DNA from: a virus
Virus record (IMG/VR): IMGVR_UViG_3300034407_003836
Location: 1-61,950 of that record
Length of the DNA: 61,950 bases
Reading direction: 5' to 3' (one strand)
Position 1 is the stretch's first letter. Every line of letters starts with the position of its first letter. Made by a program: the position numbers and the translations under genes. Of the stretch, positions 3,213 to 61,950 are shown one piece after another. The notes under the pieces were generated by a model. It searched no databases and was not told the origin of the DNA. It was given only the letters and a program-made list of their open reading frames with translations.

Positions 3213-3232
3213 GCCCGTAGGAGGTAAACCCC

Positions 3233-3262
3233 ATGAAGAAAAAATACACACGTCGAAGATAA
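3233..3262 (+). CDS. Possible basic nonapeptide ORF / leader peptide
   Basis: ATG 3233 follows an excellent TAGGAGGT (3219-3226) and encodes only nine residues, MKKKYTRRR, before TAA. A strong ribosome binding site on such a short, very basic ORF placed just before a potentially structured RNA suggests a leader peptide, a ribosome landing site that affects downstream folding, or a decayed gene. No experimental support. Confidence 0.35.
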   Translation: MKKKYTRRR

Positions 3263-3430
3263 GTGTTAGGGGTCAACCCGACCGATCTGGCAGGAAGCAT
3301 AAAGAGCCAGCGTCCCTACCTTCAGTAACCACATACCTTTTGAAGAGTTGCGTGTGGAAAACGGTTTGTAGGGTCAGATACACATGGAACAGGAGCCCCA
3401 GACGTACTTGGGCGAAAACTCTTCACATAT
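3263..3430 (+). ncRNA. Possible structured RNA upstream of the tRNA cluster
   Basis: This gene-free stretch has nested complementarity. TAGGG (3267-3271) pairs with CCCTA (3314-3318), enclosing CTGGC (3287-3291) with GCCAG (3306-3310). In the second half TGAAGAGTT (3341-3349) pairs perfectly with AACTCTTCA (3417-3425), enclosing a GCCC/GGGC hairpin near 3394-3413. The second domain ends 5 nt before tRNA-Arg, so processing of the tRNA 5' end would release it. T4 also makes stable non-tRNA RNAs from its tRNA region, but no sequence match to a known family is recognised. Confidence 0.35.
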
Positions 3431-3507
3431 GGTCCAGTAGCTCAGTTGGATAGAGCAACGGTCTTCTAAACCGTGGGTCGCAGGTTCAAATCCTGCCTGG
3501 ATCACCA
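3431..3507 (+). tRNA. tRNA-Arg(TCT)
   Basis: 77 nt with all arms: acceptor GGTCCAG/CTGGATC, D stem GCTC/GAGC, anticodon stem ACGGT/ACCGT with loop CTTCTAA (anticodon TCT), T stem GCAGG/CCTGC, discriminator A and an encoded CCA. Reads AGA, a codon common in this AT-rich genome and rare in many proteobacteria. The last base of its CCA is the first base of the AAGGAG that serves as ribosome binding site of the next gene. Confidence 0.95.
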
Positions 3508-3519
3508 AGGAGTTTTGAG

Positions 3520-4122
3520 ATGTTGAAAGTATTAGGGAAGTTGCCGAGGGAGTTAGTGGTCGCTGTTAGTGGTGGTCCTGATTCTATGGCTATTTTAGAT
3601 TTCCTTAATAATAATCATAAGGTGACAGCATATTATTTTGATCATGGCACAACATTCGGAGAAGAGGCGTACCATTTCCTTAAGAGCTACTGCGCAAGTA
3701 GAAAAATCCCATTTGTAACCAGCGTTTTATCAGAATCTCGTCCAAGCGGCAAGTCACTTGAGGAACATTGGCGGGATGAACGCTATAAACGATTTCACGA
3801 CTATAACCTACCCATCGTAACTGGGCATAATTTAGACGATGTTATTGAATGGTTCCTGTTCTCATCTGTGCATGGTAAAGGAAAAGTTATTCCTTATCAA
3901 AATAAAAATGTTATCCGTCCTTTCCTATCTACCTCGAAGCAAAGCTTGATTGACTGGTGTACAAGAAAAGGTATTCCGTTTCTGACTGACCCTGGTAATA
4001 GTAACAGAAAATTTATGAGAAGTATTATCAGACACGACATGATGCCTATCGTAGAAGAAATTAACCCAGGTATTCAAAAAACATTTAAAAAAATTGTAGA
4101 AAGCAGGTATAATAACATCTAA
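3520..4122 (+). CDS. tilS: TilS-like tRNA(Ile)-lysidine synthetase
   Basis: 200 aa. PP-loop ATP pyrophosphatase: VVAVSGGPDSMAILDFL at residues 13-29 has the SGGxDS nucleotide loop. Family hallmarks follow in order: FDHGTT, HWRDERYKRF, VTGHNLDDVIEWF, VIRPFLSTSKQSLIDWC, FLTDPGNSNRKFMRSIIRHDMMP. TilS attaches lysine to C34 of tRNA-Ile(CAU), switching its identity from Met to Ile and its reading from AUG to AUA. Cellular TilS is usually longer, with C-terminal tRNA-binding domains; this copy is essentially the catalytic core. It lies between tRNA-Arg and a CAT tRNA, its probable substrate, in one transcript. ATG follows AAGGAG (3507-3512). Confidence 0.88.
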   Translation: MLKVLGKLPRELVVAVSGGPDSMAILDFLNNNHKVTAYYFDHGTTFGEEAYHFLKSYCASRKIPFVTSVLSESRPSGKSLEEHWRDERYKRFHDYNLPIVTGHNLDDVIEWFLFSSVHGKGKVIPYQNKNVIRPFLSTSKQSLIDWCTRKGIPFLTDPGNSNRKFMRSIIRHDMMPIVEEINPGIQKTFKKIVESRYNNI

Positions 4123-4131
4123 CAGCACTGT

Positions 4132-4208
4132 GGTCCACTAGCTCAATTGGTTAGAGCAACTGACTCATAATCAGTAGGTTCGAGGTTCGATCCCTCGGTG
4201 GACTACCA
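4132..4208 (+). tRNA. tRNA with anticodon CAT, probably Ile2 (AUA after lysidine)
   Basis: 77 nt: acceptor GGTCCAC/GTGGACT (G1-U72 wobble), D stem GCTC/GAGC, anticodon stem ACTGA/TCAGT with loop CTCATAA, T stem CGAGG/CCTCG, discriminator A and encoded CCA. CAT can mean Met or lysidine-modified Ile. Position 9 nt after a TilS-like gene favours Ile2. C4-G69 and C5-G68 are present; to my knowledge these are TilS recognition pairs found in Ile2 but not in elongator Met of E. coli. Initiator features (unpaired 1-72, GGG/CCC anticodon stem) are absent. Confidence 0.93.
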
Positions 4209-4209
4209 T

Positions 4210-4285
4210 GCCCGAATGGCTCAATTGGTAGAGCAGCGGTTTTGTAAACCGAAGGTTGTAGGTTCAAGTCCTACTTTGGGCACCA
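4210..4285 (+). tRNA. tRNA-Thr(TGT)
   Basis: 76 nt starting one base after the previous tRNA: acceptor GCCCGAA/TTTGGGC, D stem GCTC/GAGC, anticodon arm GCGGT-TTTGTAA-ACCGA (G27/A43 mismatch), anticodon TGT, T stem GTAGG/CCTAC, discriminator A and encoded CCA. Reads ACA, frequent in this AT-rich genome. Confidence 0.94.
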
Positions 4286-4295
4286 AGAACAATAA

Positions 4296-4320
4296 GCTCC
4301 CGAAAGGGGGCTTTTTTGTT
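4296..4320 (+). terminator. Rho-independent terminator of the tRNA-tilS operon
   Basis: Stem GCTCCC/GGGGGC (one G-U pair) with a GAAA tetraloop (4296-4311), then six T. Lies 10 nt after tRNA-Thr. Confidence 0.85.
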
Positions 4321-4376
4321 TTATATGCAGTCTATTTATTTTGTATGCCTAATATAATAATACAGGACTTCTTTAT

Positions 4377-5387: not shown

Positions 5388-7748
5388 ATGGCTTATAAAT
5401 TTCAATCAGGACTCGCTCGCCTCGGCGGCGAAGTCCACATGGATTCAGCCCTATTAGTTTCTGGTTCAGTCAACTTGGCAGACAAGTCGCTACCCATAGC
5501 AGACTTGGATGTCAATGAAGGAACCAATTTAGGTCCAAATGCAGCACACACGGATGAGCTTATCATTCATGATGCTGATGCGGACGCTACTAAAAAGATT
5601 AGAGTTGTCGATCTTGGACAATATCTATCAGGTTCAGATCCAACTTTCTTGCAGGTCAACCAAGCAACACAGGCAGCTTCTGGTTCATTCAGAGTTGTTG
5701 GTCACAGCATCTCTGGTAGTGCTGCTCTAGAAGTTGTTGGACAAAGTTTCTTACAGGGTAAAGTCAATGCATCTGGTGCTATTGAAGCCGAAGGCTCCAT
5801 TACTGCTGGATCTAGCTTTATCATTGGTAGTGCTGATCTCAATGAAGCTGATATGGAGAAGTTGGATGGTATCACTAATGGTACTGTTGCGGCCTCCAAG
5901 GCTGTCGTTGTAAATGCTACTAAAGATGCTACTAGCTTCAACAGCTTAACTGCTGTTGCTGTTACTGGTTCGGTCAGCGTTAGCTCACCATCAGGTTCAA
6001 TCACCGATCTTTTTGTTGGTGATGATCTAGAGGTTAAAGGCAATTTGATTAGTCATGCTGCTAATACCGCTCATGGTGTTGCTACTCACCATGCTAATGT
6101 TAACGTCACTGGTACGATTGGTGCAACTCACGTTGTTGCAACAGGTCTATCTGCTTCGGCTGCCGTCTCTGGTCTTACTCTAGACATTGAGTCTACTGCA
6201 AATGTTGCAGGTGTTCTCACTGCTGGCGGTCTTACCGTTGGTAGTGCTGAGATGAACGAAGCTGACCTTGAGAAGCTTGACGGTATCACTAATGGTACTG
6301 TTGCAGCTAACAAGGCTGTCGTTGTAGATGGTAACAAGGATGCAGGTGGTTTCCGTAACATCACTGCTGTGCAAATCGGTCATGCAGATGATGCTGATTT
6401 GTTGACATTGGCTGATGGCAAGCTCACCATTAAGGGTGACGTGGATATCCAAGGTGCCTTCAACCGTATCACCACCAACGCAACAGAATTGGCTGTTGAA
6501 GATGTTCGCATCATCATTGGTAGTGGTTCAGCAGGTGCTTCGCAGCTAGACGGCGGTGGTATCTTCTTCGGAAGTCCTGGCGCTGGTAAAGCAATTGCAG
6601 AAATTGCTTTCAATGATGCTGCTGAAGATGAATTGATCTTTGCTTTCTCTGGTAGTGAAGCAATGAAGATTGACTCTGGTGGTGATCTTACTGTTCAGGG
6701 TGATGGTACAGTCGAAGGTGCATTGTCTGGTGCTGCTGGTACATTTGATGCACTAGCTGGTACAAGCTTGGCACTTCAAGGTGGTGGCATTAGTGCTGCT
6801 GGTAATGTTGCTGGCGTTGGAACTATTGGTGCCAGCGGTCTTGCATCGCTTGATGGCGGGATCAATGTTAACGATGATTTCACTGTTGATGCTAATGGTG
6901 CAGTTGTTGCTGTTGGTGTTAATGCTGGTGGTGCTGTTACTGGGGTCACAAACTTTTCAGGCTCTGGTGGAATGTCGATAGGTTCTGTTACTGCTGGAAT
7001 ATTGGGTGACGGTGTATTGGCAATAGCAAGTGGTTCGATTACCTCATTGGTTGGCATGTCTGGCTCTGGTCAGGCAGCCTTCGGTTCAGTTAATGGTGAG
7101 CTTCTTACAGATGGAAATCTCATTATTGCTAGTGGTACTATCAGCCAGGCGGTCAATATGTCTGGTTCAGGTGCGCTCAACATGGGCTCAATGATAGGTG
7201 AATTGATTAGTGATGGTACTGTTACTATAGCTAGTGGTGCCATTGGTAGTGCAGCTAGCGTTGGGACTGTTGCATTAGCAGTTAGTCAAACGGGTACTCT
7301 TGCTCGTGTCAAACCAACGTCGATGCAATATAATCTTGCCAGCTTCGGTTCGGGCTCAGGTCCACAAGAAGTAGCAGGTCTGGCATCTGGTATGCTTCAC
7401 CTTCTAACAGCATCCGCTGCCACCCAAACGACGTTTGGTGGTATCCCAGAGGGCGCTGGGGCAATGTTTACAGGCACTCTCCAGGTTGGATCTCCAGCCT
7501 CATTCGCAACAGTCACCATGACTGGTTCAGAATGTGTTAAACTGTTTGTGCCTAACCTTGCGACAAGTGATGCAGGATATACTGTTTCAATTAAGAAACA
7601 GGGTCTTGGCGAAGGTCAGTTGGTCCTAACCGCATCTGCTGCTGCTGGTAATGTTGCGTTTGATGGTGTCCTAACGGAACTAACACTATCATCCCCAATG
7701 GCTGCTGTCAACTTGGTGTGGACTGGAGTTGGCTACAACATCTACTAA
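5388..7748 (+). CDS. Large tail-fibre protein with several internal repeats
   Basis: 786 aa beginning MAYKFQSGLARLGG, an N-terminus typical of marine phage fibre proteins. Contains two copies of the unit x-LNEAD-x-EKLDGITNGTVAA-x-KAVVV found in cyanophage and other marine fibres (about residues 147-190 and 285-328), a region resembling other fibres (NRITTNATELAVEDVRIIIGSGS), three tandem 34-residue repeats (about 524-625), and the C-terminal beta domain ending in NLVWTGVGYNIY. Codon use favours T-ending codons, suggesting high expression. Preceded by TAGGAGG; followed by a strong terminator. Probably forms elongated trimers that contact the host surface. Confidence 0.75.
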   Translation: MAYKFQSGLARLGGEVHMDSALLVSGSVNLADKSLPIADLDVNEGTNLGPNAAHTDELIIHDADADATKKIRVVDLGQYLSGSDPTFLQVNQATQAASGSFRVVGHSISGSAALEVVGQSFLQGKVNASGAIEAEGSITAGSSFIIGSADLNEADMEKLDGITNGTVAASKAVVVNATKDATSFNSLTAVAVTGSVSVSSPSGSITDLFVGDDLEVKGNLISHAANTAHGVATHHANVNVTGTIGATHVVATGLSASAAVSGLTLDIESTANVAGVLTAGGLTVGSAEMNEADLEKLDGITNGTVAANKAVVVDGNKDAGGFRNITAVQIGHADDADLLTLADGKLTIKGDVDIQGAFNRITTNATELAVEDVRIIIGSGSAGASQLDGGGIFFGSPGAGKAIAEIAFNDAAEDELIFAFSGSEAMKIDSGGDLTVQGDGTVEGALSGAAGTFDALAGTSLALQGGGISAAGNVAGVGTIGASGLASLDGGINVNDDFTVDANGAVVAVGVNAGGAVTGVTNFSGSGGMSIGSVTAGILGDGVLAIASGSITSLVGMSGSGQAAFGSVNGELLTDGNLIIASGTISQAVNMSGSGALNMGSMIGELISDGTVTIASGAIGSAASVGTVALAVSQTGTLARVKPTSMQYNLASFGSGSGPQEVAGLASGMLHLLTASAATQTTFGGIPEGAGAMFTGTLQVGSPASFATVTMTGSECVKLFVPNLATSDAGYTVSIKKQGLGEGQLVLTASAAAGNVAFDGVLTELTLSSPMAAVNLVWTGVGYNIY
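5826..5955 (+). repeat. EKLDGITNGTVAA fibre repeat, copy 1
   Basis: About 130 nt encoding a 43-residue unit within the 5388 fibre gene, repeated about 414 nt later at 6240-6370. Both protein and DNA are clearly similar, pointing to a tandem module duplication. Confidence 0.8.
6240..6370 (+). repeat. EKLDGITNGTVAA fibre repeat, copy 2
   Basis: Second copy of the unit at 5826-5955, in the same frame. The best conserved core encodes EKLDGITNGTVAA and KAVVV. Confidence 0.8.
6957..7262 (+). repeat. Three tandem 102-nt (34-aa) fibre repeats
   Basis: Units start at 6957, 7059 and 7161, each encoding SGSG, then GS, a conserved DG and IASG at matching positions. Exact 34-residue periodicity with no linkers suggests one turn or rung set of a beta-solenoid shaft. 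Confidence 0.85.
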
Positions 7749-7782
7749 TATTTTGTAGAAGGTTATATAAAGTTTGCTACCT

Positions 7783-7815
7783 CAAAGGGGACACTTCGGT
7801 GTCCCCTTTGTTTTA
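7783..7815 (+). terminator. Strong rho-independent terminator
   Basis: Twelve perfect base pairs (CAAAGGGGACAC / GTGTCCCCTTTG, 7783-7794 and 7799-7810) with a TTCG tetraloop, then a T-rich tail. Ends the 5388 fibre transcript. Confidence 0.92.
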
Positions 7816-7820
7816 TGTGA

Positions 7821-7832
7821 AACTACTTATAA
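7821..7832 (+). promoter_or_regulatory. Candidate late promoter AACTACTTATAA, copy 1
   Basis: This 12-mer lies just after a terminator and 16 nt before ATG 7849. The identical 12-mer occurs at 14780-14791, also right after a terminator and 15 nt before a start codon. Its TATAA core resembles the single-box late promoters (TATAAATA type) read by gp55-like sigma factors, one of which is encoded at 38030. Confidence 0.5.
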
Positions 7833-7848
7833 AGCAGAGGGTTTTATA

Positions 7849-8907
7849 ATGGCATATAAATGGAGTGTAGGTCAAGGCGAGCAAGGAGATATTGTTTACT
7901 CCTCTGATCTTGATCAAGACACAAAAATAGACTTTGAAGAAGATGTAATAAAATTAGTAGCCAATGGTACAGAATATGTGACTGTCACCACTGGTAGCAC
8001 TAATATTGAATTAGCTGGTGATGTTAGTATTGATGGTGCTGTTGTTTTCAACGAATCAAGCGCAGATAAAGATTTCCGAGTAGAAAGCAATAATGCCGAA
8101 AATATGTTTTTTATTGACGGCGCTAACAATCGTATTGGTGTTGGTACTAACCAGCCGCTTTTTTCATTTGATATCCAAGAGCGAACAGGTGTTGAAGCAT
8201 GTATTCGCCTAAAAGGTTCTGCTGATGTTGGAATCAGATTAGCCGCTGACAGTGATAACTCAGGAGAGAATGACAACCCATATATTGATTGGTATCAAGA
8301 CGGGCAGAACTCCAATTCTAGAGCAAATCGCCTGGCTAGTATTGCTATGGAGGGTGACGCAAATGCTTCATTTACCGATTCTCTTGCAAACGCTTTCTTC
8401 CTTAATGCTCACTGTCCTAACGCTGCTGGTGCCCGTCCGTTTCAAATAGCAACTGATCAAACCAATGGCACTAATAAAGCCCGCATCACTATCGAGGGTA
8501 GCAATGGTTATGTTGGTGTTCATACAAATAGTCCATCAACCGAGATGGAAGTTATAGGAACAACCAAGTCAGACTTTTTTGCAACCGATGTAACAGAACA
8601 AGATCTTGGTAGTGGAACCAGTAGCACCCTTTCTACAACTTCAGGTCTTGTGCTATTAGATGCAGATTCTATCAATGGCACTGAAATAGGTGGACAAGAA
8701 ATGCATATATTGACATTTCCAACACCCAGTGTTTCTGGTCAGAGACTTACAATCATTGCAAAAAATGCCAGTACTAATAATACTATGATTATGCCATCAG
8801 GATTAATAAGTGGATCATTTAGTGGATTAGCAGATTCAATGGGTGTATCTGTTCTGTCGTTTGTTTGGGTTAGCGTGAGCGGACATGCCGCCTGGTATCA
8901 AGTATAA
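7849..8907 (+). CDS. Tail-fibre-type virion protein
   Basis: 352 aa from ATG 7849, preceded by AGAGG. An upstream in-frame start (7774) is rejected because it would lie before the terminator stem at 7783. The N-terminus MAYKWSVGQG parallels the 5388 protein. Contains AENMFFIDGANNRIGVGTNQP, the N-x-x-I-G-I/V-G-T motif common before receptor-binding regions in phage fibres, and a second match (NGYVGVHTNSP). The C-terminal 90 residues form the shared beta domain ending SGHAAWYQV. Its TAA overlaps the next ATG (TAATG at 8905-8909), so the two fibre genes are coupled. Confidence 0.7.
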   Translation: MAYKWSVGQGEQGDIVYSSDLDQDTKIDFEEDVIKLVANGTEYVTVTTGSTNIELAGDVSIDGAVVFNESSADKDFRVESNNAENMFFIDGANNRIGVGTNQPLFSFDIQERTGVEACIRLKGSADVGIRLAADSDNSGENDNPYIDWYQDGQNSNSRANRLASIAMEGDANASFTDSLANAFFLNAHCPNAAGARPFQIATDQTNGTNKARITIEGSNGYVGVHTNSPSTEMEVIGTTKSDFFATDVTEQDLGSGTSSTLSTTSGLVLLDADSINGTEIGGQEMHILTFPTPSVSGQRLTIIAKNASTNNTMIMPSGLISGSFSGLADSMGVSVLSFVWVSVSGHAAWYQV

Positions 8908-14424: not shown

Positions 14425-14747
14425 GGGGGTAAACGGTATCGATTGATAGGGAAATAGAAAAGGTGCAAGGGTGAGGGAAGCGTGGCTCACTAAAAACGCT
14501 TAACTTCTAATCGCAAACGACGATTTTCAACTAGCACAAGCAGCTTAATAACCTGACTTGACTTGAGGCGACGGCAGCCAAAAAACAGAAAGCCGTATTG
14601 TGTCTTGTAAGTGCTTTTGATTATCTCAGCCATAATAAGATGATCTAGTCAAGTGGTCTGTCCGACGATAAAAACAGTTCTAACCTTGTGAATGACCTCT
14701 CTGTGGAACTAGGCAAGACGGGAGTTCGATTCTCCCTACCTCCACCA
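14425..14747 (+). ncRNA. ssrA: tmRNA (trans-translation RNA)
   Basis: 323 nt. The tRNA-like ends pair: GGGGGTA (14425-14431) with TACCTCC (14737-14743), then A and an encoded CCA; T arm GGGAG-TTCGATT-CTCCC. The conserved tag region reads GCA AAC GAC GAT TTT CAA CTA GCA CAA GCA GCT followed by tandem stops TAATAA (14513-14551), a tag of ANDDFQLAQAA. It is close to the proteobacterial ANDENYALAA in start, length and AA end, the C-terminal signal read by ClpXP/ClpAP. The central part (14552-14680) can hold the usual pseudoknots. It would rescue stalled host ribosomes and mark their products for proteolysis. tmRNA is rare in phages. Confidence 0.95.
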
Positions 14748-51466: not shown

Positions 51467-54400
51467 ATGAGCATAAAAAAGTTATTTGATGCAAAAAAAG
51501 CAGGAACACTTGGTGGTGCCACTCGCTCAACCCTAAAAAAGCTTGGCGATAATGTAGAGTCACCAGAGCAAATTGAAGCAGCTTTATCGAAAGCTAGGGC
51601 TTTTTCACCAAAGATTGATTTTTCAGATCCAGCCAATTTCGTTAAATATGGCTCAGCCTATCGTTATTATTATGATACATTTGGATATATCAAAGACTAT
51701 TATCCTTACGACGGTAGTTCTAGGGAAAAGCTAGAATTTTATAATGGATTATCGCCGTTTGAACAGTATATTTTCAACAATGAATACCCTAAAACTACTG
51801 GGTATGTTACGATAGGAGCTATTTACGGCACAGATGGAGCATCTAAGCAAGGATACACTACGCCCACTACAGCGGAGTACATCCAGTTTAAGGGCGGACC
51901 ACACAGCGGAACCTTTTTTGCTACAGGATCAGGACTAAGTAACAATTTAGAGTTTGGCGGCATCAGTGGCTCAACAGTAGAATTCTTCTATAACAAGACT
52001 GAGTTCGATAGTACTATATCGTCCCCAACAGAGGTGATTCTAGATATTTGGAACGGTGTGTCAAGTGGCTCACATGACTACGGTCGCCTTACGATTGAAA
52101 CGGATTCAGGATCAGCAGATAGATTTTATGTTTCATACCAATCAGGATCAAGTGGTGTGTTTAAAGCATCGGTCCCCACCGCAGGTGGTTTAACACTAGG
52201 AAGTGGCTCTTGGGATCATTATGCTTTTGTGTTTTCCAATAGTGATGATTCTACTTCTATTGATCTTTATGAAAACGGCACATGTAAACAAAGTAATATC
52301 CTAACTGGCTCTTCCATCAACTTAGTAACAGGCAGTCTGATCGGAAGGCTCGGTGCATTAAGAACAGCCCCAGGTCCAATACAGGCAAGTGGCTATGGAA
52401 CCCAGGCAACTGCCACAGATGCCATTGATATGGCTGGGTATCAGGCTGCTGGTGATCCTGCTATCAAATTTAACATAACAATTCCTGTCGCCGCAGGTGG
52501 GTCTAACACTACCATTACGATAAAATTTGACATCTCCTCGGGCGGCTCTCCTGTAAGTGCAGGCGCAGACCATATTACCATTGGCACCGCAGGCTCAAAC
52601 GATGCAGCGAATGCGGCTCTTGTTATAAAAGCAATAAATGGTGATACGGACAGCAGAATCACTTATGGAAATGGTTCGGGCGACGGATCATCAGGAATAG
52701 GTGTACAGGGACTTACAGCATCAGCAGGAAGCTCAAGCACCAAGGTTACCCTAACAATTAGTAAGGGTGGCACGTCAGGAAATATTAACAGTGCTGTTGC
52801 ACACGGCGCAGGGACAGTTAACGTAGTTGATGTGGCTAACTTTACTGGCGGTGCGGTGATACCCGCAGGGGACGGTAAATTATCGGCTTCTTTGGACGAG
52901 TTCAGATTCTGGAAAGAGCCTAGAACAGCAGAAGAAATTGGTCGCAATTGGTATATGGGTGTTAATGGTGGTGCGAACACCACCATAAACAACTCTGGAC
53001 TAGGGATATATTATAAATTCAATGAGGGCATTACACAGGTTTCTACAACAGATAATGTTGTGCTCGATTATTCTAGTAGGTTATCAAATGGTGCCTGGAC
53101 TGGTTATTCTACATCAGGGACCAGGAATACAGGATCTGCTATAGTATCATCTAGTGCTGCGGGATTTGAGACAGCCGACCCAATTATTTATGATACACAT
53201 CCAACCTATATTTCATCCAGGGATGACCTATCGTCTTTAGGGCAGCAGTATGATTATACAAACAACTCCAGTTTGTATTACACGATGCCAGGGTGGATTA
53301 TTGAACAAGATGAAAGAAACGGCGAAGAACTAGCAAAACTAACACAGATTATGGGAAGCTACTTGGATACCCTGTATGCCCAAGTAGGCGGTGTACTAAC
53401 TGTAAAAGACGTTAGTTACCCCACAGGGAGTGTGCAAGAATCTCCAAACAATGATAGACTATTGTCATCATTAGGGTTTGAGGCTCCTGATTTATTTGAT
53501 TCTGTTGGTGAGATAGTAAGGTTCTTAGATAAGGATGATAAGAGACCATTAGAATCCTCCATACATCAAATTAAAAACATAATCTATAAAAACATTTATA
53601 ACAACTTATCTTATATCCTTAAATCAAAGGGTACTAGAAAATCGTTTGGTAATACCTTACGTTGTATGGGCATCGACGAAAAAATAGTAAAAATTAGCAC
53701 CTATGCTGATAATGTTGAGCAGACCATAACCAGCAGCTACAAAGCCATTCCAACAGAAAAGAAATTTGTTGACTTTAGTGGTCTTCGTAGGTATGATGAT
53801 CAAGCTGCCACAATATATCAGCATTATTACGCAGATGGATACGATGGGGGTTCAAGTGGGCTTATATCAGGCAACTTAGACCTTGGAGATAATGCATTTA
53901 CATTACAAGCAGATATCCTCTTCCCACTGAAGCCTTCCCCAGCAGAGGCTTCATATATTGAGCCAACCTCGCCTAGCTCCTCTTTGTTTGGTTTTCATAC
54001 ACCAAAAATTACAACAACTACGTCTACTGACACTGCTTGGGCTTCAAACACAATAGACTTTGGGTTGCAGGTGTATGCTGTCCACGCCACAACGGACTAC
54101 TCTGAAATAACAAGCCCCCAAGGTGCTTCTAGGGATGCATATTTTGTAGTAGAAGATAGGTTTGGAAATATTCTTCTTAAGACTGATACAGTTAGAGAAG
54201 TATATCAAAATACAAGGTGGGTTTTTGCACTCTCGGCTCGACCAAAAACCTATCCATTCTCTCAAGAAGTTGATGGTACGGATAATGATGACCAGTCATA
54301 TATTATAGAATTATACGGAACAAGTTTTGATCTGGAAGATAAAAGAGCATCTTTTGATTCTAGTAAAATAGTAAATTTTGTAACTGGGTCCTCTACGCTC

Positions 54401-57400
54401 GCCTCTGCGAAAAGAATATACGCTGGAGCGCACAGGACCGATTTTAGCGGCTCATTATTAACCAGGTCTGATATTAGACTTAACTCATGCCGCTTTTGGA
54501 ATACATTTCTTACATCATCCGTTGTTGATCAACAAGCTAAAGACGCTGATGCATATGGTCTTGTTCATCCGTATAGAAATGTAAAAACCTTTCAAACTAG
54601 TGGTTCCAGTGTTTTTATTCCAGCGATAGAATCGCTAGCACTTAATTGGGATTTTGAAACTGTTACAGGCAGCGATGCCAGCGGTCAATTCAGGGTAGAT
54701 GATTTTAGCTCAGGCTCTAATTCAACCGCATACGAAAATAATTATCAGGTTGAGTATGCTGGAACAGTGCAACGCCATCACTCTGCTCGTGGCGACTTCT
54801 TTAAGGCGAGCGATACTCCAGTAAGAAAAGAATATTTCCCCTCCCTAAGGTTACAAGCGCCAGAAGAATTATCTTCAGACGATATGATAACGGTGATTGT
54901 AGAGGGATCAGATGATAGTGTTTATGGTCGAGCACCCAGACCTATAAGGCATTTCTTTGCAGTTGAAAAAAGCATGTACGATGCAATATCAAACGATATG
55001 CTTGAGATGTTTGCATCAATAGATGAGTTCAACAATCTTATTGGTGAGCCTGTAAACAAGTACAGGGCAGAGTACAAAGACCTTAAGAAACTTAGAGAGA
55101 TATTCTTTCGCCGTGTTACTGGACAGCGAGTTGATTTAGACAAATACTTAGATTACTATAAGTGGTTCGACGGCGCTCTTACAAACCTTGTGGAACAGTT
55201 GTTCCCCGCTAGTGCGCCAGTGGCAGAAAACACCAGAAATGTTGTTGAGAGTCATGTTTTAGAAAGAAATAAGTATCAGCATAAGTACCCAACTCTTGAG
55301 GAGTACCCGTTTGAACCATCTGGTTCAATTAAGGGTGGGTATGAACAGCAGTATAGTTGGCGATTCAACCATCACCCAATAACAATGACGGGATCAGTTG
55401 CATCTGCGGCTGATGCGATCGATATGGATGGCTATCAGGCTGCCGCAGATCCTTCAAGTAGATTTACTATTCAAATACCTGTTGCAGCGGGTGGATCTAA
55501 TACTACCATAACTATCAAGTTTGATGTATCATCGGGCGGCTCACCATCTAGTTATGGCGCCAACGCTATCACTATTGCTACAGCAGGATCAGACGACGCA
55601 TCTAATGCCGCTTTGGTGGTCAAAGCTATCAATGGTACTGCTGACAGTAGAATTACATACGGTAATGCGGTGTCTGTAGGGGATGGATGTGCAGGTATTG
55701 GTGTTCTGGGTATTACCGCTGCGGAAGGCAGTAACAATAAAAAAGTAACTCTAACTATGACCGTTGCTGGTACAAATGGCAACATTACCAGTGCGATAGC
55801 ACATGGTGCTGGCACAGTAAACCTTGTTGATGTAAACGACTTTACAGGCGCTAGTGATGATATTATAAAAAATGATCAAGGCGAAAATTGTAGTTGGTGG
55901 GCTAATCGGGCAGAAAGAAATGCCAATCCTCTAAATTTGGGTCCAAATGCTGTTGTAGGTGCCGCAACAACACTAGATAGACAAAATATTTTTACATCTG
56001 TGCGCAAGAAAGAGCTTGACAATCAAAGAAATAAGTTCTATAAATTTGGTGGTGCAGTAGAAAAGTCTGTTGCTGGCGGACATAATCAATCCTTCAATAA
56101 GATAAAAGCTAACGTTTTATCGTTTGATCAGGTATCGGATCAGAGCACTTGTACAGATGAGGAAGTCCCAGCAGGTTCTCCTTTAGAAAAATCAAGGCAG
56201 AAGTTTAGAATCTCGATTGCTGGGCAAACCTATAAAGGCGACCGAATGGCTCCCTTTAGTTTATATAAAGCATTGGTGCCTAGCGAACACAATAAGCAGC
56301 TTACGAACACTGGCTTGTCTGGTAGTCACATGACGAATATCCATGAGGATTCATATTATGGAAGCGGTTTTGAGGTTCCAATGCAGGGTCCGTTCACAAG
56401 CCAACATGTCGGTGGTTTGCTAGCTAGAGCTAGAACAAGTCAAATTGAAGGCGCAGTCAATCTCCGCCGTGAAAATTATAGACTTACTATCGCAAGCGGA
56501 ACAGGCAGCTTGGCAAGGTTAGACACTGAAATTGGTGCCAACAGTTCAGGCAAGGGGCATTATTACAGAGGGATCACAGCCAAAAGACCTGTCAACATTG
56601 CTAATATTGCCCACCAGACGGCAAGCGACGGCGGCGGTCCAGGCGGTAGTGGTGGTACTATAGTGGGTAATTTCGATAAAAATTACCAAGTGCTCCAGAC
56701 TTCGGGTCGAAAAATAAATAACTTAGACTTTAGAGATGACCCTGATGCATATAACCCAAGTGCTTTCTTATCGCCATATGTCGGTGGTTTGGTCGAGACT
56801 CCTGTGCCATCAAGAAGAAATACAGAATACACACTCAAGGCAAGAACAACTAATAAAACTATATTTGTAAATAGGTTTTCATCGCCTGGCAGCGTAGAAA
56901 CAAATACACCTGCCTTCTTGGATTTCAACTCGCAGGAAATAGCACCGAATAATGCACTGCCTTTTAGAAACATGCTAATCAGATCAGTTAACGAAGGTCA
57001 CAATACGCTGTCGCAGGGCTGGGGTGGTCATATCAACACCACTCAAAGATCCTTCCTTGGTCTAGGATATACGATCCAAGACCTAAACACAGGTAGTTTT
57101 TCCACGGTAGTTACGTCAAGACACGATGTAAATAGAAATGCTAAACCTAAACCTTTCTTAACTCAATTCGATTTATCTGCATTCGGTCAGGGTCAGATTG
57201 AATCTATAGGCTCAGGTAGTATACATAATAATAACTTTATTACAACCCCTATTCCGCAAGCTGATAACATGTCTTGGTTTATGGCTTATTCGGGATCTGA
57301 TACGCAAACATACAATCATTTCTTCCATAGTGGTGGCTTGATGCCTGAATCTATAACTGTTCCATCCCCACCCAATTTAGAAGGTCAGTCTGGCATAAAT

Positions 57401-60400
57401 GAAGGTACACCGTTTAGTATTTCTGCTGTAGCAGAGCTTACAACAATTGGTATTGATGCCCGTGACGCTCTTGGCAGCTTTGACAAATTCACTTTATCTG
57501 GTGCTGCTTGGGTTGTGTATGATTACACTGGATCATCGTGGTTGTTTTCTACAGATCTTAGTGGTGCTAGCGGACCAACAGGTCATGAGAGCTTGTTATC
57601 GGCTGGGGCAATCAATAATATACACTATGTAGATATTTCTAGTGTGAGTAATGCAAAGGGTGTAATGACTGCTATGTCCTCTGCCATTTCTGCATCAGGT
57701 ATAGGACAGGTCGCCACCGATGGTACTGGAGATCTAAATCAAACAGCCTCCATCACAAACCTAACGATCCGCTCCCACAATAATCCAGGCGTAATGGAAA
57801 TTACTTCGTCAGCCCAAGCATTTAGTAACATATTTATCTTACCTGATGAACAGGGTGGTGCAACTTTCTTAAGCACAGAAAACGATCTTGATAAATACAC
57901 GGCAGCCGCTTCAGCGCAATCAGCTATGGGTGCGTCAACTGATGTCGAGGGTGTAACCGCAACAACAGGTTACCTCCGAAGCTTGCCGTTCGATGGTCTA
58001 TCGGATTACCGCACAAATGACGCCTCAGCAATATTTACAGCCTCAAACGGACAGGTTCAATATCGCTGGGGTGCTGGTAATAATTATAATTCTTGGCAAC
58101 AAGTAAGACAGTCTCAGTTGAGGTCACGAGAAAGTATAGTTAAATCAAATCAAATAAATGTTTTTGAAGTTGCTATGAGTAATGGGAATCAAGTAGAAAC
58201 ACAAGTAACTCTTGATGATCCATTCTTGTTTATTTCGGCAGAGCCAATAAAAACAATATTATCCGTGGTAGACGAAAACAGTCCTGAAGACGGTCAGTTG
58301 AAGTTCAGAGATATTACGGTGAAGCACTCGTATGGTAACCAGCGCCAAGGATTTATCAATGGTGATGCTAATGTGAAACACAAATACACTGGCAAGGGTG
58401 ACAAATTTCTTTATGATAGCTTACGAGATATAAGATCGATATCATATAGCAAGAACCTAGCTCCTGAGGAAACAGGTATTGGTAGAATTAAGAGCCACGA
58501 AATAACACAGCAAATTTATCCTCAAGCAAGGCACCAGTTCTTATCTGAGAGTATGTTGAGAAACAATTATTTGTACACCCGTTGGCAAAATGATGATGAT
58601 GCTATAAACAATAGGATAGAGAACGACCTACATGTTGTATCAGATCTTTTCCAAGGCGACCTTCCAAATCCTGATACGGATGACAAAGTGGCAGGTAGAA
58701 TAGAATTAATATATAAAACACACAATAGGCAAGTGGATCGCCTGGTAGTAGGGTATACTAATAGTCAAAACTACACATTAGAAGAGCATTACCAACACCC
58801 ATTTGATATAGTGGATGGTATTGTTGCCAAAAGAACTGGCAGCGGAGGAGCATCAACTGACGGCACAGCGTCTATCTGGCCTTTGGACTCTTTCTTGTTC
58901 AGCGATTCAGTATATTCAGGATCTATACCAGTATTATCAGGTGTTACGGTTGGTTCAATATCAGCTAGCGCCCAATACGGAATCCATGATGCAGTACGAT
59001 GGGACTTGAATTTCTTTACTAACCTTGGTGCGGGCGAACTAATGTGGTTCAGGGCAGGTGCAGCCGCCCGAACAGGTAGTCAGGGTTATGCACCGCAAGG
59101 GTGGTATACAAGAAGAAATTGCCAGTATATAAACCAAATGGTTCACCTAGATTTTGACAGCTTGTCCTCAGGGGTTAACTATACGCAATCTGTGTTTGGA
59201 CCTTCGATGGGCGGAGCATTGTTTATGCCGCCTTGGACAGCAGGACGTGACCGTCGAGCAGTTGATGGCAATAACAAAGGTGAACTCATAGGATCTAGGG
59301 GACCTTTCTATAATACCTACGAAGACTTTGCTGATGGCGTAAAATTAGTTGGTCGTGGTATGGGCATAATACCAGAGTTTAGAATTAGCGAACATATAGA
59401 TCATTATGAAGGTACAAATAATGGTGATTATTTCGCTGCTAACACAGCATCATATTCTATAACAGGTTCAGCTATCACTAACCTGAATAATTCAGCAGAT
59501 GATGGATTCATGAAGAGATTCCAAAATACTGACTTTATAAAATACCTATCTCAGTTTATGGTAGAAGATCAGGATATGAATGGATTGCCAACAGATCTTA
59601 AACTAGAAGCACAGGCAGTGCAGAGGCTCTTACCTTATGATGGGTTTTATCCTGTTATAAGAACTTTGCAGATAGCTACTCTGTTTTCACAGTCTTACTC
59701 GCCAGGCTTATTCCCAGTTGCAGGCGGTCTCGGTGCCGCAGATCAAACTGAGATATCAGCTTCGGGCTGGCAGAATATATTGGATTATTTTTATGCCCCA
59801 GGTATCATGTATAACTCTATCAAGTCTGGTCTCGCAGTTGACCACCCTGTATTTACAGTCAAAGAAGACAGGATTCCAAGAGAAAAGGGAACCATAGGTG
59901 AAGTATTATCAGGTTCTACGGATGCTCAGACATTTGCAGAAATAGTAAGTGATACTAAGCGAGCAGCAGGACTTAGGCAGTCCGATCACACAATCGGACC
60001 ATTGACGTCTGGCGGCGGCTCCCGTCGAGAAATAACTAAATTTTATAAAGATATTATTCTGCCTAGACGTCTTGGCACAGCCGAAGAGGTACAGCCAACA
60101 GGTAGCGAAGAATTTTTAGCCCATCAGATATATTTCCCAGACCGTATACCTTTTGAAACTATTATTAATCCTACAGATTATTTGTTGCAAAATAAGTTTA
60201 ACAGCAACCAAACATATGATTGGTTTAGAAATGACACCACATCTTCTTTCAGCTACTTTGCAAACAATAAATATGTTAAAGGTGCAGGCAACTTCTTCGG
60301 AGCAATCCCAGACGTATTCTTGGAAAACAGTAGGCTTACATCAATTGCAACCGACCCTAACTTAGTTGACCCACAAGCTATTTCAGTACAGAGTGGTACC

Positions 60401-61950
60401 CTATATGCTATGGAGGTTGCTCTTAGAAAAACTGATCAATTCAATATGTACTCAAACCCAATAGCCTTTGGACCCCCTACCGCCACGGGCTCCGCTTTCA
60501 ATAGTGGCGATGAGATCCTAGCAACCCAAGGGCAAGCCACTCATACGTTTGATGATGATATGGCGCAAGTCGTCACGGGTGATTGGGGAATGGTTAGATA
60601 CGGATACCAGACTACGGCTAAGAATTTGCTAAACGCATCGCTAACAGGCAGTATGCCATCGGGAAGCGGCTGGCCTTTGCTGCATGGTAATCATGCACCT
60701 TACACGCCTCCTTACTGGTATGGTGAGTCATTTGCAAGAATATATTATTCTCCTACAGCTTCGGGCATGGTGACAATAAATGAGATCCTAGAAGAAGCAC
60801 AATATGAGTATGGTAATGCAAATGACTATCTCTTTGATTTCAGATATAACGACCTGAATAAAACAGATGTCAGTGCTTCATTTGGGTCAGCTAATCTTAA
60901 CTTACCCATGAATATTGTAACAGAAGGCGCTGGTGGCTTAGGATTACCGCCATATATGTGGAACCGAGCCTGGCAAAATAAGATGGAGATAAAGGCTTCG
61001 CTAACAATTAATAATAGACACCCAGGTAACATACAGCCAAACAATGCATGGGTCATTATGCCTAAGTGGGAATGTCCCATATTGGATTTCCCAGTTAGAG
61101 CCGAACCATGGGCTTCAACTAGTGGCTCTTATAACTTTACAGCTTCTTTTGCTAAGGTTGGTCTTGGCGACCGTGGGTTATTACCTTTCACAAGTCCAGC
61201 TAACGGCAGAGAAGTGTGCCCACAACAAGGTATGTGGCACCAATACGGGGTAGTGCCAGATGCAGGAGAAGGTGTGCAAATGGTGCTCAGAGATATATCG
61301 TCAGGAGATAAAGAGAAGAGAATGAAAGCTCAGATAATTTATCCTGGCACCCAAGGACAACCAAATGTTATTGGTGCAGCGGAAGAAAAGATGTTACCTA
61401 AAATACCAAATTCGCTGATGGATATAACAGCGTTTGGGGATAGAAAGAGGAAAGTAAGGTCGCTGGCTAAATTGGTAGGCTTTCCATCCGAAGTGGTTAA
61501 TAAGCCAGTTGATTTAGGTCGAATAGCTAATAAGAAAACAGTTCATGAAGCTATAATAGCACTGCCATATTATGAGGATGCGGAAGCTAATATACAATTT
61601 ATTCCAATACCCTTGAAAGACGAGTCTAACCAGGTGGTAAGTGAGTTTGGAAAGCAAACAGCCAAGCTCAGGAAATCATTATCAAAATACATATTGCCAC
61701 CAGTTATAGAACAAAGAATGTCTTACTTGGTGCCAGAATCATACCCATTATCTTCTGATGGGGAAGATCTTAGATTAAGACCAGATAGTGCTGTTTACAG
61801 CAATGAGGACCCACCACTAGCAATGTATTTGTTTGAGTTTACTACGGAACTAAGTAAACAGGACTTAGCAGACTGGTGGCAGGGAATAATGCCAGAACCA
61901 AGCACTAAGTTTAACAATACAACCATGAACATATCTACAATTGATCATGC
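51467..61950 (+). CDS. Giant virion protein with LamG-like domains (partial, runs off the window)
   Basis: At least 3494 codons, open in this frame at every point sampled from ATG 51467 to the last base, with no stop in the window. N-terminus SIKKLFDAKKAGTLGGATRSTLKKLG. LamG/concanavalin-like features: SGSWDHYAFVFSNSDDSTSIDLYENG and LDEFRFWKEPRTAEEI (about residues 245-500), with a second one (about 800-1020: NAFTLQADILFP...FWNTF). Two copies of a 147-residue domain are present (see repeats). The region beyond residue 1500 is long, beta-rich and Thr/Ser-rich. Probably a baseplate/tail adhesin or tape-like structural protein; sugar binding is inferred from the LamG pattern. Confidence 0.8.
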   Translation, partial: MSIKKLFDAKKAGTLGGATRSTLKKLGDNVESPEQIEAALSKARAFSPKIDFSDPANFVKYGSAYRYYYDTFGYIKDYYPYDGSSREKLEFYNGLSPFEQYIFNNEYPKTTGYVTIGAIYGTDGASKQGYTTPTTAEYIQFKGGPHSGTFFATGSGLSNNLEFGGISGSTVEFFYNKTEFDSTISSPTEVILDIWNGVSSGSHDYGRLTIETDSGSADRFYVSYQSGSSGVFKASVPTAGGLTLGSGSWDHYAFVFSNSDDSTSIDLYENGTCKQSNILTGSSINLVTGSLIGRLGALRTAPGPIQASGYGTQATATDAIDMAGYQAAGDPAIKFNITIPVAAGGSNTTITIKFDISSGGSPVSAGADHITIGTAGSNDAANAALVIKAINGDTDSRITYGNGSGDGSSGIGVQGLTASAGSSSTKVTLTISKGGTSGNINSAVAHGAGTVNVVDVANFTGGAVIPAGDGKLSASLDEFRFWKEPRTAEEIGRNWYMGVNGGANTTINNSGLGIYYKFNEGITQVSTTDNVVLDYSSRLSNGAWTGYSTSGTRNTGSAIVSSSAAGFETADPIIYDTHPTYISSRDDLSSLGQQYDYTNNSSLYYTMPGWIIEQDERNGEELAKLTQIMGSYLDTLYAQVGGVLTVKDVSYPTGSVQESPNNDRLLSSLGFEAPDLFDSVGEIVRFLDKDDKRPLESSIHQIKNIIYKNIYNNLSYILKSKGTRKSFGNTLRCMGIDEKIVKISTYADNVEQTITSSYKAIPTEKKFVDFSGLRRYDDQAATIYQHYYADGYDGGSSGLISGNLDLGDNAFTLQADILFPLKPSPAEASYIEPTSPSSSLFGFHTPKITTTTSTDTAWASNTIDFGLQVYAVHATTDYSEITSPQGASRDAYFVVEDRFGNILLKTDTVREVYQNTRWVFALSARPKTYPFSQEVDGTDNDDQSYIIELYGTSFDLEDKRASFDSSKIVNFVTGSSTLASAKRIYAGAHRTDFSGSLLTRSDIRLNSCRFWNTFLTSSVVDQQAKDADAYGLVHPYRNVKTFQTSGSSVFIPAIESLALNWDFETVTGSDASGQFRVDDFSSGSNSTAYENNYQVEYAGTVQRHHSARGDFFKASDTPVRKEYFPSLRLQAPEELSSDDMITVIVEGSDDSVYGRAPRPIRHFFAVEKSMYDAISNDMLEMFASIDEFNNLIGEPVNKYRAEYKDLKKLREIFFRRVTGQRVDLDKYLDYYKWFDGALTNLVEQLFPASAPVAENTRNVVESHVLERNKYQHKYPTLEEYPFEPSGSIKGGYEQQYSWRFNHHPITMTGSVASAADAIDMDGYQAAADPSSRFTIQIPVAAGGSNTTITIKFDVSSGGSPSSYGANAITIATAGSDDASNAALVVKAINGTADSRITYGNAVSVGDGCAGIGVLGITAAEGSNNKKVTLTMTVAGTNGNITSAIAHGAGTVNLVDVNDFTGASDDIIKNDQGENCSWWANRAERNANPLNLGPNAVVGAATTLDRQNIFTSVRKKELDNQRNKFYKFGGAVEKSVAGGHNQSFNKIKANVLSFDQVSDQSTCTDEEVPAGSPLEKSRQKFRISIAGQTYKGDRMAPFSLYKALVPSEHNKQLTNTGLSGSHMTNIHEDSYYGSGFEVPMQGPFTSQHVGGLLARARTSQIEGAVNLRRENYRLTIASGTGSLARLDTEIGANSSGKGHYYRGITAKRPVNIANIAHQTASDGGGPGGSGGTIVGNFDKNYQVLQTSGRKINNLDFRDDPDAYNPSAFLSPYVGGLVETPVPSRRNTEYTLKARTTNKTIFVNRFSSPGSVETNTPAFLDFNSQEIAPNNALPFRNMLIRSVNEGHNTLSQGWGGHINTTQRSFLGLGYTIQDLNTGSFSTVVTSRHDVNRNAKPKPFLTQFDLSAFGQGQIESIGSGSIHNNNFITTPIPQADNMSWFMAYSGSDTQTYNHFFHSGGLMPESITVPSPPNLEGQSGINEGTPFSISAVAELTTIGIDARDALGSFDKFTLSGAAWVVYDYTGSSWLFSTDLSGASGPTGHESLLSAGAINNIHYVDISSVSNAKGVMTAMSSAISASGIGQVATDGTGDLNQTASITNLTIRSHNNPGVMEITSSAQAFSNIFILPDEQGGATFLSTENDLDKYTAAASAQSAMGASTDVEGVTATTGYLRSLPFDGLSDYRTNDASAIFTASNGQVQYRWGAGNNYNSWQQVRQSQLRSRESIVKSNQINVFEVAMSNGNQVETQVTLDDPFLFISAEPIKTILSVVDENSPEDGQLKFRDITVKHSYGNQRQGFINGDANVKHKYTGKGDKFLYDSLRDIRSISYSKNLAPEETGIGRIKSHEITQQIYPQARHQFLSESMLRNNYLYTRWQNDDDAINNRIENDLHVVSDLFQGDLPNPDTDDKVAGRIELIYKTHNRQVDRLVVGYTNSQNYTLEEHYQHPFDIVDGIVAKRTGSGGASTDGTASIWPLDSFLFSDSVYSGSIPVLSGVTVGSISASAQYGIHDAVRWDLNFFTNLGAGELMWFRAGAAARTGSQGYAPQGWYTRRNCQYINQMVHLDFDSLSSGVNYTQSVFGPSMGGALFMPPWTAGRDRRAVDGNNKGELIGSRGPFYNTYEDFADGVKLVGRGMGIIPEFRISEHIDHYEGTNNGDYFAANTASYSITGSAITNLNNSADDGFMKRFQNTDFIKYLSQFMVEDQDMNGLPTDLKLEAQAVQRLLPYDGFYPVIRTLQIATLFSQSYSPGLFPVAGGLGAADQTEISASGWQNILDYFYAPGIMYNSIKSGLAVDHPVFTVKEDRIPREKGTIGEVLSGSTDAQTFAEIVSDTKRAAGLRQSDHTIGPLTSGGGSRREITKFYKDIILPRRLGTAEEVQPTGSEEFLAHQIYFPDRIPFETIINPTDYLLQNKFNSNQTYDWFRNDTTSSFSYFANNKYVKGAGNFFGAIPDVFLENSRLTSIATDPNLVDPQAISVQSGTLYAMEVALRKTDQFNMYSNPIAFGPPTATGSAFNSGDEILATQGQATHTFDDDMAQVVTGDWGMVRYGYQTTAKNLLNASLTGSMPSGSGWPLLHGNHAPYTPPYWYGESFARIYYSPTASGMVTINEILEEAQYEYGNANDYLFDFRYNDLNKTDVSASFGSANLNLPMNIVTEGAGGLGLPPYMWNRAWQNKMEIKASLTINNRHPGNIQPNNAWVIMPKWECPILDFPVRAEPWASTSGSYNFTASFAKVGLGDRGLLPFTSPANGREVCPQQGMWHQYGVVPDAGEGVQMVLRDISSGDKEKRMKAQIIYPGTQGQPNVIGAAEEKMLPKIPNSLMDITAFGDRKRKVRSLAKLVGFPSEVVNKPVDLGRIANKKTVHEAIIALPYYEDAEANIQFIPIPLKDESNQVVSEFGKQTAKLRKSLSKYILPPVIEQRMSYLVPESYPLSSDGEDLRLRPDSAVYSNEDPPLAMYLFEFTTELSKQDLADWWQGIMPEPSTKFNNTTMNISTIDH
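52412..52850 (+). repeat. Duplicated domain in the giant virion protein, copy 1
   Basis: Encodes a roughly 146-residue domain (DAIDMAGYQAA..., IPVAAGGSNTTITIKFD, ITIGTAGSNDAANAALVIKA, SRITYGN, AHGAGTVNVVDVANFTGG). It is inserted within the first LamG-like domain, between its early strands and the LDEFRFW strand. Highly similar to 55406-55850. Confidence 0.85.
55406..55850 (+). repeat. Duplicated domain in the giant virion protein, copy 2
   Basis: Second copy of the domain at 52412-52850, with a short insertion (VSVGDGCAG). The protein identity is strongest in IPVAAGGSNTTITIKFD and GITAAEGS/AHGAGTVN regions. The unit looks like a mobile beta-domain cassette. Confidence 0.85.

Follow-up and report, generated by a model that had tools for sequence, protein, structure and literature searches.

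A marine phage tRNA array joins a catalytic-domain-only TilS homologue to a probable tRNA-Ile2, a likely module for decoding AUA

How might a phage arrange to have AUA read by a tRNA whose anticodon, CAT, is also that of the methionine tRNAs? How tRNA(Ile)-lysidine synthetase (TilS) tells tRNA-Ile2 from Met tRNAs that share its anticodon is a classic problem of tRNA identity, for which the C-terminal domains of TilS and the acceptor stem of the tRNA have so far provided the answer. tRNA-Ile2 species that lack the lysidine modification behave as Met tRNAs (PMC11938285). The window analysed here, a stretch of 61,950 nucleotides from IMG/VR virus record IMGVR_UViG_3300034407_003836, places a TilS-like gene beside a CAT tRNA gene. 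We consider it likely that the array containing them is an AUA-decoding module, in which tRNA-Ile2 and a minimal lysidine synthetase are supplied together by the phage. An earlier note on this DNA had made the observation, which is confirmed, and had offered an interpretation, which is in part supported.

The array occupies positions 3431-4320 of the plus strand and contains, in order, tRNA-Arg(TCT), tilS, the CAT tRNA, tRNA-Thr(TGT) and a terminator-like hairpin, with 12 nt between tRNA-Arg and tilS, 9 nt between tilS and the CAT tRNA, and a single nucleotide between the latter and tRNA-Thr. All three tRNAs are found by ARAGORN and exceed the Rfam tRNA gathering score of 29 bits: tRNA-Arg, which reads AGA (3431..3507; 72.9 bits), the CAT tRNA (4132..4208; 69.5 bits) and tRNA-Thr, which reads ACA (4210..4285; 71.2 bits). 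The tilS gene (3520..4122) follows the motif AGGAG (3508..3512), read from the sequence as its likely ribosome-binding site and situated directly 3′ of the encoded CCA of tRNA-Arg. The hairpin and its T tract (4294..4323, plus strand; 8 pairs, 5 of them G-C) are judged terminator-like by position and sequence, since the count of such hairpins in the region, one, does not exceed the 1.9 expected from shuffling. The gene set as first described, three tRNAs, a TilS-like ORF and a terminator, is borne out by ARAGORN, Rfam, TIGR02432 and this hairpin. The genes would be transcribed together; a search for a promoter at the array gave none that was convincing.

Part of a 174,625-bp contig that encodes a T4-type capsid protein matches the window at 99.9-100% identity; the source is a marine T4-like virus of bacteria. 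The three tRNAs of the array are the only ones on the 174.6-kb contig. Judged by capsid and baseplate proteins, the nearest isolates include Flavobacterium phage immuto, Microcystis phage Mel-JY01 and Rhodothermus phage RM378, at 30-45% identity. The GC content of the window is 39.6%, a Shine-Dalgarno-like motif is found in only 13 of 42 genes, and psbA was searched for and is absent, which argues against a typical cyanophage. Elsewhere in the window, a phage-encoded tmRNA (14425-14747; 81.9 bits), with ANDDFQLAQAA as its predicted tag, precedes a PhoH/PIN-domain gene, and an ORF of at least 3494 codons (51467-61948) comes after the baseplate genes and runs off the window end. In the related T4-like phage immuto, a gene (L212, 30262-30576) carries a TiaS annotation; TiaS is the archaeal agmatidine enzyme for tRNA-Ile2.

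Is the protein a TilS? For its catalytic domain, the identification made at the outset is supported by family models, sequence and fold alike. The ORF scores 116.6 bits against TIGR02432 (lysidine_TilS_N; curated cut-off 93.6) and 107.6 bits against Pfam ATP_bind_3 (cut-off 27). The PP-loop motif SGGxDS is invariant across phage and cellular TilS rows, as are the positions aligned to D137, E140 and R205 of A. aeolicus TilS, which we take to be catalytic residues. An AlphaFold2 model (pLDDT 94.3) matches A. aeolicus TilS with a TM-score of 0.82-0.83, and in a fold search of the PDB the TilS structures come out best (TM 0.79-0.83), followed by TtuA (~0.68-0.77). The gene is intact over its 200 codons, and its low dN relative to dS against the relative L002 (dN 0.035, dS 0.679; dN/dS ~0.05) indicates that it is kept by strong purifying selection. 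The protein had been described as about 200 residues long and close to the catalytic core; the size stands at 200 aa, and the description is better put as catalytic domain only. Across 84 phage loci, TilS is 195-223 aa long (leaving out one sub-cut-off paralogue of 246 aa), as against 323-637 aa for cellular TilS in the same analysis. Cellular TilS of types I and II has the same N-terminal PP-loop catalytic domain and fold, but CTD1 is present in both types and CTD2 in type I, whereas the phage protein ends after the catalytic domain and has neither. For want of these C-terminal domains, it is assigned to neither of the two types and is classed as a TilS homologue made up of the catalytic domain alone. 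The tree unites the phage proteins in a clade that excludes its 20 cellular rows (support 100/100); most of those rows have long branches, and the tree points to no cellular origin for phage TilS. No catalytic-domain-only TilS is, to our knowledge, known to be active, which counts against the AUA-decoding reading.

The class of the CAT tRNA is the second part of the question. ARAGORN names it tRNA-Met, from the anticodon, and direct BLAST searches against phages and E. coli returned mixed tRNA names at ~75% identity. These matches being uninformative, a reference set and a classifier were built. The references are CAT tRNAs sampled from genomes of Bacillota and Bacteroidota (17 of each), to which Ile2 and Met tRNAs of E. 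coli, checked against RefSeq labels, were added; classes (initiator, elongator Met, Ile2) were assigned from sequence features. Reference Ile2 tRNAs always pair C4-C5 with G68-G69 and have CTCATAA as their loop; elongator Met references differ from them in the acceptor stem and usually also at loop positions 32/38. The position-specific classifier recovered 53/53 references in leave-one-out under all four masks. Against this set of Bacillota, Bacteroidota and E. coli only, the window tRNA scores 22.2 ln units higher as Ile2 than as elongator Met. Since C4C5 and the loop features had themselves named the Ile2 set, scoring was repeated with those positions masked; without positions 4, 5, 68 and 69 and the anticodon loop, the tRNA is still Ile2 by +5.3. 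As an independent control, the annotated T4 tRNA-Ile was scored as Ile2 by 10.8. The window tRNA has the anticodon stem ACTGA/TCAGT and the loop CTCATAA, and the GGG/CCC stem of initiators is absent; in its loop, its C4C5 and the lack of that stem it agrees with Ile2 in each of the three reference groups, although initiator tRNAs also have the CTCATAA loop. The assignment to tRNA-Ile2, not elongator or initiator Met, is therefore upheld, and the tRNA is a probable lysidine substrate. One feature is of another kind: U72 (as G1-U72 or A1-U72) is present in the TilS-linked CAT tRNAs of all close relatives (L001-L020, L028, L029), in many cellular elongator Met references and in none of the 20 cellular Ile2 references. 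On these sequence features the phage CAT tRNA looks mosaic.

Does the phage need such a tRNA? In its own usage, ATA makes up 561 of 1376 isoleucine codons (41%, 27.9 per 1000), AGA 46% of arginine codons and ACA 42% of threonine codons. Each is the commonest codon in its family, and the idea of a tRNA set matched to the phage's codon use agrees with this. Third-position base composition alone predicts an ATA share of ~38%, so the high use of ATA is mostly compositional: the codon is indeed frequent, as had been claimed. The demand for AUA is thus real but compositional. Two related phage isolates that were sampled use ATA at 44-49%, and no TilS was seen in them.

The pairing of the two genes extends well beyond the window. 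Scanning IMG/VR twice yielded 80 loci with relatives, and the second scan confirmed 157 candidates. Each of the 22 close relatives (63-100% identity) has a CAT tRNA at most 1.6 kb downstream of tilS, with extra genes in between in 7 of them. Of the 11 non-redundant loci elsewhere in the phage TilS clade that carry tRNAs, 9 have a CAT tRNA closest to tilS, whereas CAT accounts for 8% of the other tRNAs (binomial P 6e-9); its placement varies, being either 16-58 nt upstream or 146-2508 nt downstream. None of the CAT tRNAs nearest tilS is initiator-type, compared with 6/7 of those more than 2.6 kb away in the IMG/VR loci. The adjacency noted in the window is therefore a conserved one. A freshwater clade of phage TilS (26 tree rows) shows no tRNA in flanks of up to 6 kb, and two large contigs yielded just one CAT tRNA each, of unclear type and placed ~20 kb off or at the other contig end, so that linkage is common, not universal.

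Some of these loci have features of their own. In L005, nuclease-like and DNA methyltransferase-like ORFs, possibly a restriction-modification pair, lie between tilS and the CAT tRNA (6596-8122). In L008, a group I intron (RF00028, 84.7 bits) interrupts the CAT tRNA (6590-7960) just 3′ of anticodon base 36. In the Bacteroidota genomes G046, G049 and G059, a cellular tilS stands beside an elongator-type CAT tRNA gene, no more than ~1 kb away.

What, then, does so small an enzyme recognise? In cellular TilS, the C-terminal domain CTD2 contacts the acceptor stem, and C4-G69 and C5-G68 are the dominant identity elements for the E. coli enzyme (PMC12514573). Both pairs are present in the window tRNA, as the earlier note had seen; the role of recognition elements that it gave them is not borne out. 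Only 6 of 21 scored close relatives keep the pairs, the 15 that have lost them having TilS proteins 67-72% identical, and several relatives with G4-C69/G5-C68 score nearer Met over all positions. Since the pairs are so often lost and CTD2 is absent, they are unlikely to be read by the phage enzyme. As it lacks the domains that cellular TilS uses on the acceptor stem, the phage TilS most likely recognises the anticodon arm and the tRNA body. A bolder reading, which we hold only tentatively and think somewhat more doubtful than probable, is that the catalytic-only TilS of this phage clade dispenses with acceptor-stem reading and has co-evolved with a mosaic tRNA-Ile2 poorly seen by host TilS. 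Such a tRNA would combine an Ile2-type anticodon arm with an acceptor stem often of the Met type (U72, G4-C69/G5-C68). Were this so, the phages would possess an AUA-decoding pair of their own, partly orthogonal and preceded by a structured RNA, and their enzyme would be the smallest natural lysidine synthetase. A widespread phage clade without the C-terminal domains, and with drifting acceptor-stem pairs, offers a natural minimal system for the study of recognition by the catalytic domain.

The module favoured here would work as follows. tRNA-Ile2(CAU) and TilS are encoded 9 nt apart in one array, and once the array is transcribed and its tRNAs are processed, C34 would be adenylated by the TilS domain and then joined to lysine. 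The modified tRNA would no longer be a Met-like reader of AUG; charged with isoleucine by the host IleRS, it would read AUA, the phage's commonest isoleucine codon. The phage would thereby supply both a tRNA and the modification that keeps it from decoding the wrong codon. With enzyme and substrate co-encoded, modification could keep in step with the surge of phage tRNA and under-modification would be avoided, to the benefit of the phage. To call the operon self-contained, as was done, is nevertheless too strong: IleRS, the t6A37 enzymes and the ribosomes are host-supplied, and bacteria normally possess a TilS of their own.

Another suggestion is that the phage TilS is a dispensable backup, the host enzyme modifying the phage tRNA and the phage enzyme adding little. 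The window tRNA does keep the two pairs that dominate for E. coli TilS (PMC12514573), and T4 has a tRNA-Ile without an adjoining TilS gene. Strong purifying selection and the long persistence of TilS across a diverse phage clade speak against a mere spare, and most close relatives have tRNAs without the pairs that a host enzyme might be expected to need; we regard the suggestion as unlikely. Might the minimal enzyme instead act mainly on host CAT tRNAs, whether initiator Met, elongator Met or Ile2, and so alter host translation, its own tRNA being secondary? The absence of the C-terminal domains by which cellular TilS discriminates among tRNAs, the CTCATAA loop that initiator tRNAs share, and a freshwater clade having TilS without a nearby tRNA would all fit. 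This is quite unlikely, given the placement of the gene beside an Ile2-type tRNA in 22/22 close relatives and 9/11 tRNA-bearing others, and given that conversion of Met tRNAs would harm the phage's own translation, which needs AUG to be read.

Less probable again is that the CAT tRNA is an elongator Met, its adjacency to TilS reflecting a general clustering of translation genes. Against the G1-U72 pair (many cellular elongator Met tRNAs, 0/20 cellular Ile2 references), the relatives with G4-C69/G5-C68 that fall nearer Met when all positions are used, and the elongator Met tRNA beside tilS in some Bacteroidota, stand the 22.2 ln units in favour of Ile2 (5.3 with positions 4/5/68/69 and the loop masked) and the fit of CTCATAA, non-GGG/CCC stem and C4C5 to Ile2 in three reference groups, which make this very unlikely. 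Least probable of all is a PP-loop protein that makes some other modification, whether of C34 or of another position, for instance thiolation or the addition of another amine. TtuA sulfurtransferases are the next-best structural match, TtcA and TtuA models match weakly, and TilS accepts lysine analogues in vitro (PMC11938285); yet TilS is best by family model, sequence and fold, with every TilS structure ahead of TtuA. A lysidine synthetase supplied together with its tRNA-Ile2 thus remains the reading that we prefer.

Phage TilS as such is already in the literature. It was reported in the Pseudomonas jumbo phages MIJ3 and PA5oct, whose authors suggest a role in host viability and draw no link to a tRNA (PMC6892783). 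The TilS domain of these phages, ~200 aa, is 40% identical to the window protein, and one of the three "tRNA-Met" genes of MIJ3 (LR588166.1, 175311-175387) classifies as Ile2; tilS is, however, ~9 kb from this Ile2-type tRNA, not adjacent. Further reports concern pelagimyophage group PMP-A, which are marine myophages (PMC7029224), and Ralstonia phage RsoM2USA, with a protein of 349 aa (PMC8504454). As in the window phage, the enzyme is there described as a phage-encoded tRNA(Ile)-lysidine synthetase, and PMP-A is likewise marine; coupling to tRNA-Ile2 is absent from the relevant passages of either paper (PMC7029224, PMC8504454), and the PMP genomes shown have ~32-34% GC against 39.6% for the window. 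In a literature search that covered few subscription papers, no description was found of such a coupled, catalytic-domain-only arrangement. As far as found, it is the coupling of the minimal enzyme to tRNA-Ile2 that is new.

The tRNA operon of T4 (NC_000866) offers another comparison, again in a T4-like phage. Arg, Ile and Thr tRNAs stand together in both, but segB, a homing endonuclease gene, lies between Arg and Ile in T4 where the window has tilS. T4 has its tRNA-Ile for AUA without a TilS, and relies on the host enzyme. Small RNAs of unclear role, the stable RNAs rnaC and rnaD, adjoin the T4 array; they lie 3′ of it, whereas the window has an RNA on the 5′ side that does not match them.

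This conserved structured RNA (3258..3430, plus strand; ~173 nt) is non-coding and ends exactly at the start of tRNA-Arg, with no gap. Twenty related loci have it ahead of their first tRNA, at ~71-97% identity in DNA alignments, and in places its conservation greatly exceeds that of tilS: against L003 the element is 97% identical over 263 nt, compared with 71% for tilS. The proposed fold has 37 pairs, 99.1% of them kept, with double changes at 5 pairs; 23 cells are changed on both sides, where shuffles give 6.5, and pairing in slid controls is 29-46%. Because the shuffle control ignores relatedness and most pairs are invariant, support for the fold is moderate. One of the five double-change pairs belongs to the long-range helix GAAGAGTT/AACTCTTC, with a compensatory change in L008, which suggests a probable pseudoknot. 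A covariance model of the element matches this phage clade only. Rfam gave no credible match, the best (E 0.77), to a snoRNA family, falling well short of the gathering score, and a known ribozyme or riboswitch was accordingly rejected. Homology to T4 rnaC/rnaD was likewise rejected, as the model does not match them; the RNA is possibly their analogue. HDV-like theta ribozymes occur near phage tRNAs (PMC10879173) and are a lead only. In L191 the RNA and tRNA-Arg are accompanied by an upstream CAT tRNA, with no TilS in the 14 kb examined, so the partner of the RNA may be the tRNA array and not tilS.

Finally, a 9-codon ORF, MKKKYTRRR (3233..3262, plus strand), read from the sequence, has a strong Shine-Dalgarno motif (AGGAGG, 3219-3224) and ends at the start of the RNA element. 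Rich in Lys and Arg codons and located upstream of tRNA-Arg, it may encode a leader peptide, and most relatives, though not all, have a similar short ORF ending in Arg codons.
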